A stretch of 64,000 nt of DNA from Actinomycetota bacterium (GTDB lineage Bacteria > Actinomycetota > Geothermincolia > Geothermincolales > RBG-13-55-18): NCBI GenBank assembly GCA_003598015.1, contig QZKE01000033.1, positions 60,616 through 124,615 of the forward strand, read 5' to 3'. The notes below the pieces were generated by a model. That model was not told where the DNA came from and made no database searches. It worked only from the letters and a program-made list of their open reading frames with translations. Positions within the stretch are counted from its first letter, which is position 1; every line of letters begins with the position of its first letter. Both the position numbers and the translations under genes were made by a program. Below, one piece after another: positions 1 through 20,298 of this stretch.

Positions 1-2
1 CC

Positions 3-752
3 CAGATAAAGGAGGCGTTCCCCCCCGCGATTGCGGCTGAGTATAACGCCGGTTTCAAAAAGATCGCCCAGAGGTGCAATGTGCTGCGGGACCTGGACGT
101 GTACCTTCTTGAAAAGCAACGCTACTACGACCTGCTGCCGCAGCACCTCCACCAGGGACTTGACCAGTATTTCGCGCACATAAAGCGCAGAAGAAAAGCT
201 CAACACAAGAGCTTTGCGGATTTTCTCCAGACCAAGACCTTTGCCTCTACCCTCGAGAATTGGGGGGCTTTCCTCGAGAGCCCGCAAACTCCCGCCGGCA
301 GCCCCCCGGCAATCGAGGTTGCCAGGTCGCGCATTCGCGATCGTTTCAGGAAAATTATCAAGAAGGGCAGGAAGATCTCAACTGCTTCCCCCGATAAGGA
401 CCTGCATAGCCTGCGCATAGACTGCAAGAGGCTGCGCTACTTGCTCGAGTTCTTCGCGTCGCTATTCCCGGCGAAAAAGATGGACAGGCTCATCAAGCAC
501 ATGAAAGGCCTCCAGGATAATCTCGGCGAGTTCAACGACCTTGCTGTACAGCAGGGCAATCTCAGCGTGTATCTGGCACGTTCCGGGCACAACGCGCCTC
601 AGCACCAGCTCAGGTCTGCGGCGATCGGTGGCCTTCTGGCCGTTCTCAGCAACAGACAGAATGAAGTGAGGGAGGAATTCTTCCATAGCTTCGCGGAGTT
701 CGACTCAAAGCAGGTACATACGTTATGCAAAGAACTTTTCGGGGAAGGTTAG
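3..752 (+). CDS. CHAD domain protein, 5'-truncated by the window edge
   Basis: The track ORF starts at an internal GTG (81), but the frame is open to base 3 (QIKEAFPPAIAAEYNAGFKKIAQRCNVLRDLDVYLL). CHAD-like RDLDVYL and LHSLRIDCKRLRYLLEFF segments. Confidence 0.85.
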   Translation, partial: QIKEAFPPAIAAEYNAGFKKIAQRCNVLRDLDVYLLEKQRYYDLLPQHLHQGLDQYFAHIKRRRKAQHKSFADFLQTKTFASTLENWGAFLESPQTPAGSPPAIEVARSRIRDRFRKIIKKGRKISTASPDKDLHSLRIDCKRLRYLLEFFASLFPAKKMDRLIKHMKGLQDNLGEFNDLAVQQGNLSVYLARSGHNAPQHQLRSAAIGGLLAVLSNRQNEVREEFFHSFAEFDSKQVHTLCKELFGEG

Positions 753-753
753 C

Positions 754-1500
754 GTGCGCATACTCTCTTTTTACAGCATAAAGGGCGGCGTGGGAAAAAC
801 CACCGCAGCGGTTAACCTTGCCTACCTTAACGCCAGGGAGGGAAGAAGAACGCTCCTCTGCGACCTGGACCCGCAGGCATCCGCATCCTTCTATTTCCGC
901 ATCAAACCGATGAGCGGGCAGAATTCGAAGATGCTGGTTTCCGCGCAGAGGAAAGCGTCGGAGTTCGTGCGGGCAACCGATTACGAAAACCTCGATCTTC
1001 TCCCATCGGACATCTCTTTTCGAAAACTGGATATACAGATCGACAAGGCCAGGAAGCCGAAAAGCCAACTCAAACACACCTTCCGTCAATTCGATGGCGA
1101 GTACGATACGCTCTTCATCGACTGCCCCCCGAACATCACCCTTCTTTCGGAAAACATCTTTCGCGTATCCGACATAATGCTGGTTCCCGTTATTCCCACC
1201 ACGCTTTCCAGGCGAACCTACGAGCAGCTTTGCGATTTCCTGTTAAAGCAGGAAATCGATGTTGAGCGAGTGATCCCCTTCTTCTCGATGGTCGACAGGA
1301 GAAAGAATATGCACAAGCAGATGATGGAAGATCTGCGCGGTGCCCATCCCGGTTTTCTGGAACACTATATACCCTATCGTTCCGACATCGAAAAAATGGG
1401 AACCTTCCGAGCCCCTCTCCCCGCGGTCTACCCGGAAAGCAGAAGCGCCCGGGAGATGGTGTCGTTATGGCGGGAGGTCCTTGAAAGGGCGTCGGTATAG
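754..1500 (+). CDS. ParA/MinD-type Walker ATPase
   Basis: Deviant Walker A YSIKGGVGKTTAAVNLAYL, then LLCDLDPQAS and LFIDCPPN; GTG start 1 nt after the CHAD stop. Confidence 0.9.
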   Translation: MRILSFYSIKGGVGKTTAAVNLAYLNAREGRRTLLCDLDPQASASFYFRIKPMSGQNSKMLVSAQRKASEFVRATDYENLDLLPSDISFRKLDIQIDKARKPKSQLKHTFRQFDGEYDTLFIDCPPNITLLSENIFRVSDIMLVPVIPTTLSRRTYEQLCDFLLKQEIDVERVIPFFSMVDRRKNMHKQMMEDLRGAHPGFLEHYIPYRSDIEKMGTFRAPLPAVYPESRSAREMVSLWREVLERASV

Positions 1501-1501
1501 A

Positions 1502-2407
1502 ATGGAGATAGAAAGGAAATTCCTTCTGCAGGAGCCGCCCGAGAAGCTGTACGCATATCCCGCCACGACCATAGAGCAGGGGTATATAATCGTCACCGAG
1601 AGCGAGGAGCTGCGCATCAGAAGGCGGGGTCTGTCGTACACGCTGACGTTCAAGAAGGGCTCGGGGACGACGAGAGACGAGATCGAGGTAGAGATAACAA
1701 GAGAACAATACGAGGAGTTCAGGCTGCACGTTATCGGCGTGCCGATCCACAAGAAAAGGATCGACTTCCCCTATGGCGATCATACGATGGAAATAGATAT
1801 CTACAAGGACGCCCTGGAGGGACTGGCCGTCGCCGAAGTCGAGTTCCCTTCGCGGGAGAGCATGCAGGATTTCTCCCCTCCCGACTGGCTGGGGGAGGAC
1901 GTCTCTTGCGACGCCGGGTTCAAGAACAAGAACCTGGCGCTGCAGGGCCTTCCCGCTTCACTTCTGCGCAAATGGAAGGATGCGTCTCGGCCGCCCTGGC
2001 ACTTCGAGCAGTCCGGGGCCGTCCCCTTCCGCAAGAAAGATGCGGGCTGCGAGGTTCTGCTCGTTACCACCCGGAAAGCGGGCAGGTGGATAATCCCGAA
2101 GGGTATCGTCGAGCCGGATCTCTCACCAGCGGACTCGGCGGTCAAAGAGGCGCTCGAGGAAGCAGGCGTTTCGGGTATCGTGATGCATGAGATCCAGTCG
2201 TCGTATTACTACGACAAGTGGAATGGGAGATGCGCCGTCACGCTGTTCCCGCTCCAGGTGACCGAAGAGCACGAACACTGGAGGGAAGAGGGAGTGCGCG
2301 AGCGGCGGTGGGTTGCGCAAGAACACCTGGGCGATTACGTGGAGAGCGCGGGATTGAAAGAGGCTGTCCTGCAGGTGCTGGATCGGCTGTACTGCAGCGG
2401 GAAATGA
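1502..2407 (+). CDS. CYTH domain (triphosphate tunnel metalloenzyme-type) fused to Nudix hydrolase
   Basis: N-terminal MEIERKFLL (CYTH ExExK signature); C-terminal half carries a Nudix-like box (GIVEPDLSPADSAVKEALEEAG). Likely start is ATG 1502, not 1340, 1 nt after the ParA-like stop. Confidence 0.88.
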   Translation: MEIERKFLLQEPPEKLYAYPATTIEQGYIIVTESEELRIRRRGLSYTLTFKKGSGTTRDEIEVEITREQYEEFRLHVIGVPIHKKRIDFPYGDHTMEIDIYKDALEGLAVAEVEFPSRESMQDFSPPDWLGEDVSCDAGFKNKNLALQGLPASLLRKWKDASRPPWHFEQSGAVPFRKKDAGCEVLLVTTRKAGRWIIPKGIVEPDLSPADSAVKEALEEAGVSGIVMHEIQSSYYYDKWNGRCAVTLFPLQVTEEHEHWREEGVRERRWVAQEHLGDYVESAGLKEAVLQVLDRLYCSGK

Positions 2408-2429: not shown

Positions 2430-2453
2430 AAAAGCCCTCGCGAGAGGGCTTTT
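2430..2453. terminator. Rho-independent-type terminator, possibly bidirectional
   Basis: Perfect inverted repeat aaaagccctcgcgagagggctttt between the CYTH-Nudix gene and the converging tRNA-Ile. Confidence 0.75.
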
Positions 2454-2461
2454 GCGAAGGG

Positions 2462-2538
<77 letters not shown>

Positions 2539-3257: not shown

Positions 3258-4703
3258 TCAGCCTTTCATCACCGCAAGGGGCCGCATGCGCGCCACTTTC
3301 CGTGAGAGCCCAGCCCCCTCGCAGATCTCCACTACCTCCTGTACATCCTTGTACGCCTCGGGGGCCTCCTCAGCAAAGCCGGCGAGGTGCCCGGAGCGCA
3401 CCATTATCCCCCGGCTTTCCAGCCTCTCTCTGAGCTCTTCGCCGCGCACCAGCTTCTTTGCCGCCTTGCGGCTCATGGCCCGGCCCGCCCCGTGGCAGGT
3501 GGAGCCGAAACTCTTGCGCAGCGCCTCCTCCGTGCCCACCAGGACGAACGAGTAGCTGCCCATATCGCCCGGGATGATCACCGGCTGCCCGGTCTGCGCG
3601 AACCTCTCCGCAACCTCCGGGCGGCTGCCCGGAAAGGCGCGTGTCGCTCCCTTGCGATGCACCATCAATGATGCCGGCTTTCCGTCGACCTCGTGCACTT
3701 CCGCCTTGGCCAGGTTGTGTGAAACATCGTAGAGCAACTCCATCCCCAGCTTCCTTGCCCCCGTCCCGAACACCCTCTCGAAACACTCGCGCACCCAATG
3801 CGTGATTGCCTCGCGGTTGCACATGGCGAAGTTCGCGGCGCAGGCCATGGCCGCCAGGTAATCCCGCCCTTCTCTCGACTGCACCGGGGCACAGACCAGC
3901 TGCCGGTCCGGAAGCCGGTATCCGTAACGCGGAAGGGCCGCCCCCATTACCTCGATATAATCCGTACATACCTGGTGTCCCAGGCCACGCGATCCGGAAT
4001 GCACCATCACTACAACCTGGCCCTCGAAGATGCCCAGCTTCTCCGCCAGGGGACCCGCCTCGTCCACTACCTGTATTTCCAGGAAATGATTACCAGACCC
4101 AAGGGTTCCAACCTGCTCACGCCCGCGCGCGACAGCCTTGTCGCTGACCTTGCCGGGGTCGGCCCCCGCATAGCAGCCGTTTTCCTCCATGGCTTCGAGG
4201 TCCTCCTCCCAGCCGATGCCGCTGGCGACCAGCGCCGCGGCGCCGCGGGACATCATGCGCTCCACCTCCCTGCGCTCCAAGCGCAGCCGCCCCTTCGTCC
4301 CCAACCCCTTGGGCACACTCACGTTGAGGAGATCGATGGTTTCACGCAGCCTGCCTGCCGCTTCGGTGTGGGTCAGGGACGTTTTTATCAGGCGGACGCC
4401 GCAGGATATATCGTAGCCGACGCCCCCCGGCGAGATCACGCCGTCCGCGGCACCGGTGGCCGCAACACCGCCTATGGGGAAGCCGTATCCCCAGTGTATG
4501 TCGGGCATGGCCAGGGAGGCTTTGACGATCCCCGGCAGGCAGGCCACGTTTATGACCTGCTGCAGGGCGTTGTCCCTGTCGGCTTTCTCCAGGAGCGCGC
4601 GGTCCCCAAAAACGACGCCGGGGACGAGCATGCCCTCCTGCGCGTCCGGGGGTATTTCCCAGGTGAAGTCATCCACTTTTTTTATACTGCCGAGAAGACT
4701 CAT
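3258..4703 (-). CDS. rtcB: RtcB RNA-splicing ligase
   Basis: MPDIHWGYGFPIGGVAA, GGVGYDISCGVRL, GTLGSGNHFLEIQ, SHNLAK are characteristic RtcB motifs. Start placed at ATG 4703 rather than 4964. Confidence 0.95.
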   Translation of the reverse strand: MSLLGSIKKVDDFTWEIPPDAQEGMLVPGVVFGDRALLEKADRDNALQQVINVACLPGIVKASLAMPDIHWGYGFPIGGVAATGAADGVISPGGVGYDISCGVRLIKTSLTHTEAAGRLRETIDLLNVSVPKGLGTKGRLRLERREVERMMSRGAAALVASGIGWEEDLEAMEENGCYAGADPGKVSDKAVARGREQVGTLGSGNHFLEIQVVDEAGPLAEKLGIFEGQVVVMVHSGSRGLGHQVCTDYIEVMGAALPRYGYRLPDRQLVCAPVQSREGRDYLAAMACAANFAMCNREAITHWVRECFERVFGTGARKLGMELLYDVSHNLAKAEVHEVDGKPASLMVHRKGATRAFPGSRPEVAERFAQTGQPVIIPGDMGSYSFVLVGTEEALRKSFGSTCHGAGRAMSRKAAKKLVRGEELRERLESRGIMVRSGHLAGFAEEAPEAYKDVQEVVEICEGAGLSRKVARMRPLAVMKG

Positions 4704-4738
4704 TGGGTATCGGCTCCTGCGGGCGTGTCGCGCGCTTT

Positions 4739-5155
4739 TCACACGTCGAAGATGACCTGGGCCGTCCAGCGGCCCTTCTCCTCCCTTAATTCTAGCATGT
4801 GATAGGTGGGCGCCTTTATCTCCGCGCCGGTCACGTGCCTTTCGGGATCGAGCGCCTCCCCTGTTCCCCATGCCCTGACCGAGGTGTCGCTGATCTCGCT
4901 CACCTCGAAGGAGCGGAAAGCCCACCCCTCCGCCTCCACCCGGTAGAGGATCTCCGAGAGCCATGATACCAGCAGGGACTCGCGCTCCCTGCCTTGCGCC
5001 GCCAGCCTTACGCGCCGCTCCGGCCTGATCTTCTCGAGGTCGAGCATGAGGGACATCATGCCCCGGGCGCAGTTCTCGAAAGCCTCGGACATGCTGGAGC
5101 CGCAGGCCCGGATGCCCACGTCTGAGGCGTGCTCTACTACCTCGAATCCCGTCAG
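4739..5155 (-). CDS. Archease (RtcB activator)
   Basis: [18 protein letters not shown]... at the N terminus and YHMLEL...AQVIFDV at the end are archease-like; adjacent to rtcB. Track ORF starts at 5119, but conserved N-terminal residues extend upstream to the end of gyrA; exact start uncertain. Confidence 0.85.
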
Positions 5156-7641
5156 CCTTCCTCCCCCTGAGTCTCCGGCTCAGACTCGAGCTCGGCCTCC
5201 GGCTCGTGGAGACCCTCCTGGAAGGCCAGCTGTGCGATGGACGCCACGCCGTCCTCCTCGTCCAGCTTCATGATTCTTACGCCCTGGGTCGCGCGGCCCA
5301 TGCGCGAGATGTCGTCGATGGCCATGCGAATGACCACTCCCTCGACGGACACCGCCATCAACTCCTGGTTCTCCTTGACCACGCGCGCCCCCACCAGCAG
5401 GCCCTTGCCGCCGGTGAAGGAAATAGTCTTCACGCCCTTTCCGCCGCGGCGATGCTTGGGGTACTTGGAGACGGCCGTCCTCTTTCCGTACCCCAACTCG
5501 GTGATGACGAACAGGTCGGCGTCTTCGGTCGCTATTCCCATGGCGATTACATCGTCTTCCGCGCTCAGGGTCATGCCCTTGACGCCGCGGGTATCGCGGC
5601 CCATGGGGCGGCAGTCGGACTCGGCAAAACGGATGGCTTGCCCCCCGCGTGACACCATCACGAGGTCGTTGGCGCCGCTCGTCAGCCTGGTATCTATGAC
5701 CTCGTCTCCCTCCGCCAGGCTGATGGCGATCAGCCCGTCCTTGCGCGGCGAGTCGTAGTTCTTGAAGGAGGTCTTTTTGATCATCCCCCGCCGCGTCGCC
5801 ATGACCAGGAAGGCATCCTCGGGATATTCCTTGGTGGCTATGACCGAACATATCTTTTCCCCGGAGGTCAGCGGCAGCAGGTTTACCAGGGCCTGGCCCC
5901 TGGCCGCCCGCGAGCCCTCGGGCAGCTCGTATACCTTCAAGCGATAAGCCTTCCCCCGGTTGGAGAAAAAGTGTATGTAGTGGTGCGTTGACGCGACGAA
6001 GAGGTGCTCTACGAAGTCGCCTTCCTTGAGGTTCATGCCCATCACCCCACGCCCCCCCCTCCTCTGGGTGCGGTAGGTCGTTATGGGCAGTCTCTTGACG
6101 TAACCGGAATGGGTGATGGTCACCACCACCTCTTCTTCGGCGATGAGGTCTTCGATCTCCAGGTCTTCGTAATCGGGGACTATCTCGGTCCTGCGGGGAT
6201 CGGTGAAACGTTTCTTGATAGCCAGAAGTTCCTCGACGATGATGGCCTTGAGCTTGGCTTCATCCGCGAGGATCTCCTTCAGCCGCGCGATCTCCTTCTT
6301 CAGCTCCTTGTGCTCCGTCTTGACCTTCTCCTGCTCCAGGCCGGTCAGCCTCTGCAGCCTCATGTCCAGGATGGCCTGGGCCTGCTCCTGGCTCAGCTTG
6401 AACTGCTTCATCAATCCTTTCCTGGCATCATCGACCGTCCGCGATTTCTTGATGAGAGCGATGACTTCGTCCAGGTGAGCCAGCGCGACGAGCAGGCCTT
6501 CCAGTATGTGGGCCCTTTTTTCGGCTTTTTCCAGGTCGAACTTCGTGCGCCTGGTCACCACCTCCACCTGGTACTCTACATATCCGGTCAGGGCGTCCTT
6601 GAGGCTAAGGGTGCGCGGCACGCCTCCCACCAGCGCGATCATGATGATCCCGAAGGAGTCCTGCAGTTGGGTGTGCTTATACAGCTGGTTCAGTACCACC
6701 TGGGGAGCGCTGTCTTTGCGTAGCTCCACCACCAGGCGCATGCCCGCCCGGTCGCTTTCGTCGCGCAGGTCGGACACCCCGACGAGTTTCTTGTCGCGTA
6801 CCAGCTCGGCGATCCTCTCCGTCAGGCGCGACTTGTTCACTTGATAGGGGATCTCGGTAATGACTATGCTGGAGCGGCCCGCCTTGTTCTGTTCGATGTG
6901 GGCTCTCCCCCTCACCCGGATGACGCCGCGGCCGCTCTCGTAGGCCTCCCTGATACCCTCGAGCCCCATGACCATGCCCCCGGTGGGAAAGTCCGGGCCT
7001 TTTACGTGCTTCATCAGCTCCCTGGTCTCACTATCTGGCTTCTTGATCAAGACGACCGCCGCGTCTATCACCTCTCCCAGGTTGTGGGGTGGAATGTTGG
7101 TGGACATGCCTACGGCTATTCCCGACGAACCGTTGGCCAGCAGGTTGGGGAAACGGGCCGGCAGTACCGATGGTTCCTGCAGGGACTCGTCGTAGTTGGG
7201 CACGAAGTCAACCGTCGCCTTGTCGATGTCTCTCAGCACCTCCATGCTGATGGGAGAGAGGCGGGCTTCCGTATAGCGCATGGCCGCCGGGCTGTCTCCA
7301 TCGACGGAGCCGAAGTTGCCGTGGCCGTCCACCAGCTCGTAACGGGAGGAGAAGTCCTGGGCCATCCTCGCCAGGGTATCGTAGATGGCGGCATCGCCAT
7401 GGGGGTGGTATTTCCCCATTACGTCCCCCACAACCCTTGCCGACTTACGGTGGGGACGGTTGGGCGCGAGGTTCTGCTCGTACATCCCGTAGAGTATTCT
7501 GCGGTGGACCGGCTTGAGGCCGTCTCTGACATCGGGGAGGGCCCGCCCCACGATTACGCTCATGGCGTAATCCATATATGAGCGCTGCATCTCCTCGTCT
7601 ATCTCGATGGGTTTTATCTTCCCGCTCAGGGCTTGTACCAT
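5152..7641 (-). CDS. gyrA: DNA gyrase subunit A
   Basis: [31 protein letters not shown], active-site [10 protein letters not shown]; adjacent to gyrB. Confidence 0.98.
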
Positions 7642-19313: not shown

Positions 19314-19377
19314 CTCTGCGGCAACAACCTGGCGGCTTGTGGGCCGCCAGGAGAGGCCAGTCGCGAGGTGAGGATCA

Positions 19378-20298
19378 ATGGAAGTTGAAGAGATGGGCGC
19401 CGCTGAAGAGAAGCAGGAGAAGAGCGAGGTTGTGGATCTGGGAGAGGCGGGAGTTAGGGGGAAAACCGCGGAGGCAGGGACCAGGATGGAGGGGGAGAGG
19501 GGCGAAGCGAAGGCGGAGGAGGAGAGCGCGACGGATGTGGCGAAAGTGGTAGCCATAGCCAATCAGAAAGGGGGCGTGGGGAAGAGCACCACAGCAATAA
19601 ACCTTGGCGCCTATCTGGCCATGGAGGGCAAGCGCGTACTGGTGGTAGACTTGGACCCGCAAAGCAACGCGACAAGCGGGCTGGGTATAGGCCAGAATAC
19701 AACCGAACAGCAGATATATGATGTTCTCGTCAACGAAGTACCCCTCGAGGAGATAATAGTCCATACCTCAACTGAGGGGTTAGACCTAGCGCCCTCATCG
19801 CTCAGACTGGCGGGCGCAGAGGTCGAATTGGTATCCGTCTACTCCAGGGAGGGCAGGCTGTTGAAGAGTCTTGAGCCGGTTAAGGGCGGGTATGACATCA
19901 TCCTCGTCGATTGCCCCCCCTCGCTCGGCCTCTTGACGGTCAATGCCCTGGCTGCCGCCGATGAGGTGATGATTCCCATTCAATGCGAATACTATGCTCT
20001 GGAGGGATTGGTTCTGCTGCTGCGGACAATAGAAAAGATACGCGTCTACTTGAATCCGGATTTACGGATAGGCGGAATACTATTAACCATGCATGATGTG
20101 CGTACGAATATCTCCAAGCAGGTCATGGAGGAGGTAAGAAAACAGTATCCGAACGAGACGTTTGTGACCGTTATACCGCGGAATGTGCGTTTGAGCGAAG
20201 CCCCCAGCTATGGCCAGCCCATATCTCAATACGATCCGCTCTCGCGGGGGGCGCTGGCATATCAGAGTTTAGCGAAGGAAGTGATATCCCATGGCTAA
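19378..20298 (+). CDS. parA: Chromosome partitioning ATPase ParA (Soj)
   Basis: VVAIANQKGGVGKSTTAINLGAYLA, VVDLDPQSNATSGLG, ILVDCPPSLGLLTVNALAA; overlaps parB. About 55-aa charged N-terminal extension unless a downstream start is used. Confidence 0.97.
   Translation: MEVEEMGAAEEKQEKSEVVDLGEAGVRGKTAEAGTRMEGERGEAKAEEESATDVAKVVAIANQKGGVGKSTTAINLGAYLAMEGKRVLVVDLDPQSNATSGLGIGQNTTEQQIYDVLVNEVPLEEIIVHTSTEGLDLAPSSLRLAGAEVELVSVYSREGRLLKSLEPVKGGYDIILVDCPPSLGLLTVNALAAADEVMIPIQCEYYALEGLVLLLRTIEKIRVYLNPDLRIGGILLTMHDVRTNISKQVMEEVRKQYPNETFVTVIPRNVRLSEAPSYGQPISQYDPLSRGALAYQSLAKEVISHG

Follow-up and report, generated by a model that had tools for sequence, protein, structure and literature searches.

What does a ParA-type ATPase do in a run of polyphosphate (polyP) genes? 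The question is raised by the left end of the 64,000-nucleotide stretch of DNA analysed here (G000:C1:60616-124615, referred to below as the window), in which the 3' part of a CHAD gene, a ParA-like gene and a CYTH-Nudix fusion gene follow one another on the same strand, separated by single nucleotides (positions 753 and 1501). From these three genes the initial annotation had proposed that the ATPase might position polyP granules, with the CHAD protein as cargo adaptor and the CYTH-Nudix protein as an enzymatic arm. The co-directional arrangement is confirmed by the coordinates (Table 1) and by Pfam matches to CHAD (1.6e-58), AAA_31/ParA (1.7e-35), CYTH (2.2e-06) and NUDIX (1.6e-10). As argued below, we regard it as probable that the locus encodes a ParA-type system positioning or partitioning polyP granules, with CHAD as the granule adaptor.

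Table 1. Coordinates of the polyphosphate gene run, its flanks and related genes of the same genome
Feature	Position	Strand	Size	Remarks
SixA-like histidine phosphatase gene				Precedes PPK1, 4-nt overlap
PPK1 gene	C1:57801-59852		683 aa	Ends 9 nt before CHAD
CHAD gene, 3' part	window 1..752	+	501 aa (full gene)	Stop TAG 750-752; full gene G000:C1:59862-61367
ParA-subfamily gene	window 754..1500	+	248 aa	GTG start 1 nt past the CHAD stop
CYTH-Nudix fusion gene	window 1502..2407	+	301 aa	ATG start
Perfect palindrome AAAAGCCCTCGCGAGAGGGCTTTT	window 2430..2453		24 nt	Between the CYTH-Nudix gene and tRNA-Ile; by eye
tRNA-Ile	window 2462-2538	-		Convergent to the run of genes
RtcB-like RNA ligase	window 3258-4964	-		Opposite strand beyond the run; by eye
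DNA gyrase subunit A	window 5152-7641	-		Opposite strand beyond the run; by eye
Soj-clade ParA (frame)	window 19372-20295			
Second PPK1	G000:C56:21893-22441			Outside the five-gene run

Reading the contig further to the left, as the initial annotation had advised, yielded both the entire CHAD gene and a ppk gene. The latter encodes a complete PPK1 with all four PP_kinase domains (Pfam) and is itself preceded by the SixA-like gene. The window edge thus cuts a five-gene polyP run (SixA-like, PPK1, CHAD, ParA, CYTH-Nudix) that contains a ParA. The palindrome behind the run might act as a two-way terminator; it is not among the results of a consensus terminator scan, probably because its T tract sits within the stem. 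An antiphage-defence reading of the locus was dropped, as PADLOC gave no credible match.

The identity of the ATPase was addressed with a tree of 51 proteins, in which 32 members of its subfamily were separated from 19 Soj-type proteins with a support of 100/100. The Soj clade includes the other ParA of the window but not ParA 754-1500, so that the distinction drawn at the outset between this protein and the chromosomal ParA at 19.4 kb holds. Neither the Pfam matches nor the reading of the genes revealed a ParB-like gene in the five-gene run. Tree and neighbours together rule out that ParA 754-1500 is a Soj copy or a plasmid partition gene. The signature-lysine Walker A motif (KGGVGKT, K10-T16) is invariant in the subfamily, as are Walker A' (D37/D39) and B (D123), and the subfamily also has signatures of its own (DLDPQGAAT, a VKGG loop and MVDRRKxLHRE). 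The AF2 model (pLDDT 89.3) was best matched in Foldseek by Soj/ParA structures (Soj, 8RAY, 2BEK; TM 0.86-0.90), with a good match to McdA as well. Judged by its motifs and predicted fold, ParA 754-1500 is a deviant-Walker-A ATPase of the ParA/MinD type. Nonspecific DNA binding by Soj depends on two arginines, R189 and R218 (PMC3778016). In our alignment the equivalent of R189 is present in nearly all subfamily members, whereas that of R218 is not conserved (IPYRSDIEKMG versus IPRNVRLSEA). An apparent ParA-CYTH fusion on the Paracoccus plasmid pKGP1 contains ambiguous residues, is probably an assembly artefact and was left out.

A conserved link between the ATPase and CHAD should be visible across genomes, and such a search had been recommended by the initial annotation. 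Among 397 genomes of the same phylum, ParA (cut-off E<=1e-35) was found in 19, in 12 of which CHAD lies immediately 5' of it. The scan of a named genome collection added 13 subfamily loci from Gammaproteobacteria, Alphaproteobacteria, Actinomycetota, Acidobacteriota, Bacteroidota and Desulfobacterales, eight of them with CHAD directly 5'. CHAD is therefore directly upstream, and always on the same strand, at 20/32 sampled loci, and clustering of the neighbours by BLAST showed that no other neighbour gene recurs nearly as often. In the same scan CHAD, PPK1 and CYTH were detected within 8 kb on each side at none of 67 generic ParA loci (Fisher 5e-13 for CHAD adjacency). In a Bacteroidota-centred set of 248 genomes, 59 carried ParA, and 49 of their 60 copies were CHAD-adjacent. 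Hence ParA is paired, in both samples but at none of the generic loci, with a conserved gene for a cargo-binding partner, as in organelle-positioning systems of the McdAB type. The start of ParA overlaps the CHAD stop by exactly 4 nt (ATGA/GTGA) in 14/20 pairs, and in the rest the distance is no more than about 25 nt. Such conservation goes far beyond chance, and pairs were found in bacteria of at least five phyla; among the loci read we saw no natural ParA-CHAD fusion. One genome (G654; C17, C55) holds two complete pairs, and in another a mere CHAD fragment beside ParA (G606:C52:5443-5589) possibly represents a decaying pair.

The two genes also tend to occur together at the level of whole genomes. 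Within the phylum, CHAD is present in 18/19 genomes with ParA versus 149/378 without it (1e-6, relatedness ignored), and in Pseudomonadota in 55/65 versus 121/284 (4e-10, relatedness likewise ignored). Close relatives of the source organism follow this pattern: one congener (G002) has the whole SixA-PPK1-CHAD-ParA-CYTH/Nudix run, and another (G001, 97% complete) is without ParA, CHAD and PPK1. In the family of the window, clear CHAD genes occur only in the two ParA-bearing genomes, G012 giving a marginal match.

The CHAD protein of the window is of the long type represented by CtCHAD of Chlorobaculum tepidum, its match in the PDB (5e-60), with which it shares 127/305 identical residues. Binding of polyP by CtCHAD has been measured, mutated and crystallised (PMC6537752), the polyP-bound structure being 6QVA, and other phosins attach to polyP granules in vivo (cited in PMC9239181). 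All six polyP-binding residues named in PMC6537752 are kept in the window protein (H253, R256, R260, R296, R418, Y419), which is accordingly predicted to be a polyP-granule adaptor. The genome G515 carries on a contig of 2,154,946 nt, in this order, PPK1, a 273-aa gene, CHAD and ParA, and its CHAD is 100% identical to CtCHAD (PDB 3E0S/6QV7/6QVA) over the aligned stretch, except for one residue at the start of the construct. The 273-aa protein between ppk1 and CtCHAD (L186:10531-11352, minus strand) consists of repeats like GxFxCSGNxLxSLxGAP and has no Pfam match.

The N-terminal domain of the window CHAD has no Pfam match. In the model of a relative (L073, pLDDT 85) this domain has the tunnel fold of TTM/CYTH proteins, with thiamine triphosphatase and archaeal TTM as Foldseek matches (E about 4e-5 to 1e-4). 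The catalytic ExExK motif is lost in the main-clade ParA-linked CHADs, whereas most PPK1-linked CHADs retain it in their N-terminal TTM; judged by this motif, the N-terminal TTM domain looks catalytically dead. In the CHAD tree, 19/20 ParA-linked CHADs group together with three others that have no ParA beside them, and this clade is separate from the CHADs linked to PPK1. L074 (with L153) is the exception: it lies beside this ParA even though its CHAD belongs to the PPK1-linked clade. It represents a second, separate CHAD-ParA pairing, which argues for function and not for shared descent alone. Over 18 pairs, the distances between ParA proteins correlate with those between CHAD proteins (Mantel r 0.75, 0/5000 permutations). 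The CHADs that stand beside PPK1 without ParA form a clade of their own (L146, L147, L150, L160, L162, L165), most with an intact TTM motif, and the two kinds of CHAD with their different gene partners are sometimes found within one genome (G292, G178). CHAD showed no recognisable ParA-activating peptide, and a C-terminal motif was dropped as a candidate because none is universal among the CHADs.

The third gene of the triad may supply the enzymatic function. The CYTH part of the fusion keeps the ExExK motif (MEIERKF), the PDB entries nearest to its Nudix part are diphosphoinositol polyphosphate phosphohydrolases, and the protein is predicted to be a (poly)phosphate turnover arm. Three Paracoccus species, P. 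aestuarii DSM 19484, P. marcusii and P. liaowanqingii, have the order CHAD-ParA-CYTH-NUDIX in their plasmid annotations (identities between P. aestuarii and the window: CHAD 33%, ParA 43%, CYTH 38%, Nudix 28%), and CHAD-ParA-CYTH-Nudix occurs also in a genome of the Pseudomonadota-centred set (G796). On the Paracoccus plasmids and in L239, CYTH and NUDIX are separate genes in the same order. Together with congener G002 and the loci of the same phylum, these plasmids rule out that the triad is unique to its source genome. On the P. aestuarii plasmid CHAD is preceded by a small gene (62 aa; L244:4299-4487, plus strand) whose product weakly matches ribbon-helix-helix proteins, and other Paracoccus plasmids have short genes at the equivalent position.

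Most other lineages keep the CHAD-ParA pair alone, sometimes with an adjoining SixA-like gene; PPK1, SixA and CYTH-Nudix join it in some lineages only. Since the companions vary in this way, we regard CHAD-ParA as the core and PPK1, SixA and CYTH/Nudix as recurrent companions. The carriage on plasmids and the scatter over phyla suggest that the pair has spread horizontally.

Not every member of the subfamily is linked to CHAD. In Pseudomonadota, about six of the 65 genomes with ParA have CHAD side by side with it, and in many ParA lies near truA, with a short CHAD protein encoded elsewhere in the genome. In L225-L233, L240 and L241 of the Pseudomonadota-centred set, the genes near ParA are truA (tRNA pseudouridine synthase), RnfH-like and cysM-like (names assigned by eye). 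In a Chitinophaga-like branch (L072, L192, L193, L194) the recurring neighbour is an esterase-like gene, and the genome often lacks CHAD. CHAD occurs in trans only in six genomes of the Bacteroidota set and in the f20 genomes. A divergent actinobacterial branch (L061, L064, L077) has other fixed neighbours; in L077 ParA stands between an iron-sulfur reductase-like and a phosphoglycerate-mutase-like gene. A further unlinked member, on pMAQU02 of Marinobacter nauticus (L246), is near the polyhydroxybutyrate gene phbB. The Chitinophaga-like and Pseudomonadota loci show that the subfamily is not invariably accompanied by CHAD, and in the unlinked branches either CHAD acts in trans or the subfamily took other partners. 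The initial annotation had counted an unrelated ParA partner elsewhere as an argument against its own proposal. Such partners do exist in several branches, in which ParA is not next to CHAD. The two other counter-arguments that it named, a triad confined to this genome and an adjacency lost in relatives, do not hold. The link to polyP itself, in turn, emerges strongly supported by PPK1 in the run, the cross-phylum pair, the homology to CtCHAD with its binding residues and the gene order in Paracoccus.

Based on these observations, we hypothesize that the ATPase and CHAD work as follows. PPK1 would make polyP. Using its CHAD domain, the CHAD protein would coat the granule and act as cargo adaptor, a role for which it is the natural choice because it binds polyP and has ParA as its overlapping or abutting neighbour. 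In the ParAB and McdAB scheme the nucleoid is occupied by a ParA dimer carrying ATP, which the cargo's adaptor then releases (PMC13052382, PMC9178275). In the same manner, the ParA described here would dimerise with ATP and then bind the nucleoid, from which contact with a CHAD-coated granule would release it by stimulating its ATPase, so that granules may be moved, spaced or shared between daughter cells by a diffusion ratchet. The CYTH-Nudix and SixA-like proteins would act at the granule on polyP or its products. The conserved pairing suggests that cells actively position polyP granules, as others do carboxysomes or chromosomes. Against this hypothesis speak the branches in which ParA is not linked to CHAD, the non-conserved R218 equivalent, the variable company of PPK1, SixA and CYTH-Nudix, and the failure to recognise a ParA-activating peptide in CHAD.

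The main rivals of granule positioning are a regulatory and a chromosome-directed reading. According to the first, the ParA-like protein acts locally on the granule enzymes, as a regulator or assembly factor of the kind that BcsQ is for cellulose synthase: it would control formation of the PPK1/CHAD complex or polyP synthesis through ATP-dependent dimerisation and leave the granules unmoved. BcsQ indeed falls within the same fold family, but the nearest folds are Soj/ParA. Likewise, the gene is often found in or near ppk1 runs (the window's genome, L066 and G515-type genomes), but outside the window's genus, L066 and green-sulfur-type genomes most pairs are not beside ppk1, and ParA follows CHAD, the granule binder, and not PPK1. 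Even with the loss of one DNA-binding arginine of Soj in its favour, we consider local regulation rather unlikely.

According to the second, CHAD would detect polyP during starvation and signal this to a ParA with a role in nucleoid organisation, replication or segregation. Both the ParA fold with its conserved R189 equivalent, which suggests DNA binding, and the coupling of polyP granules to chromosome segregation in Caulobacter (reviewed in PMC13052382) would fit this idea. It is nevertheless improbable, as a separate Soj is encoded within the same window, the run was found to hold no ParB-like gene, and the Paracoccus copies sit on plasmids with CYTH and NUDIX genes. An identification of the P-loop protein with a metabolic enzyme, such as a polyP- or nucleotide-using phosphotransferase, is hardly credible given its invariant Walker motifs, a whole fold that matches ParA/Soj and the lack of an extra substrate-binding domain, even though all its neighbours are phosphate-polymer enzymes or binders and esterase-linked and orphan branches exist.

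Returning to granule positioning, we think the balance tilts slightly towards a newly recognised, dedicated ParA-type system that is conserved and horizontally mobile in Actinomycetota, green sulfur bacteria, Pseudomonadota and other phyla and has CHAD of the CtCHAD type as its granule adaptor. How bacteria place and share their polyP granules is an open question. A 2025 review lists only AlgP for polyP, with its ATP dependence unknown, and states that the need for energy remains to be seen (PMC13052382). With CHAD-ParA, both a candidate for an ATP-driven system and its adaptor can be named. If this is true, polyP granules are another cargo of the ParA/MinD family, and the retention of a TTM domain without its catalytic motif in this CHAD subfamily would be explained. 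Several carriers of the pair are in culture (Chlorobaculum tepidum, Paracoccus, Rhodothalassium, Prauserella), and the polyP complex of the adaptor domain has already been solved.

The initial annotation knew of no described ParA-CHAD system. This calls for a qualification, since the neighbourhood as such had been drawn: in Acidithiobacillus a folD-ppk-parA-CHAD order places a gene named parA, possibly of the same subfamily, beside ppk and a CYTH-CHAD gene. In these reports the ParA is called a plasmid partition protein and given no role (PMC10892726, PMC6416229). Similarly, CtCHAD shares with the window protein the CHAD type and the binding residues, but PMC6537752 mentions no ATPase and does not discuss the neighbouring ParA. 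A full-text literature search, with preprints and most subscription journals outside its scope, yielded none that assigns a ParA to polyP granules.

Against this background we read the locus as a probable case of ParA/MinD positioning, with polyP granules as a new cargo. The even spacing of such granules on the nucleoid is a real phenomenon in Pseudomonas aeruginosa (PMC9239181, PMC13052382), but AlgP, which is involved there, is a histone-H1-like DNA-binding protein and not an ATPase. With Soj-Spo0J and ParABS systems the present ParA has in common the nearest fold, that of Soj, and the R189 equivalent; it differs in its separate clade, the run without ParB and the missing R218 equivalent. 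McdA, on the other hand, is without the signature lysine of this ParA (PMC9178275), and the proposed adaptor here is not McdB but a large protein in which TTM is joined to CHAD, a known polyP-binding domain, in a pair known from genes and predicted fold. The two systems resemble each other in that a ParA-type ATPase, of a fold that our model matches, is encoded beside a cargo-binding protein.
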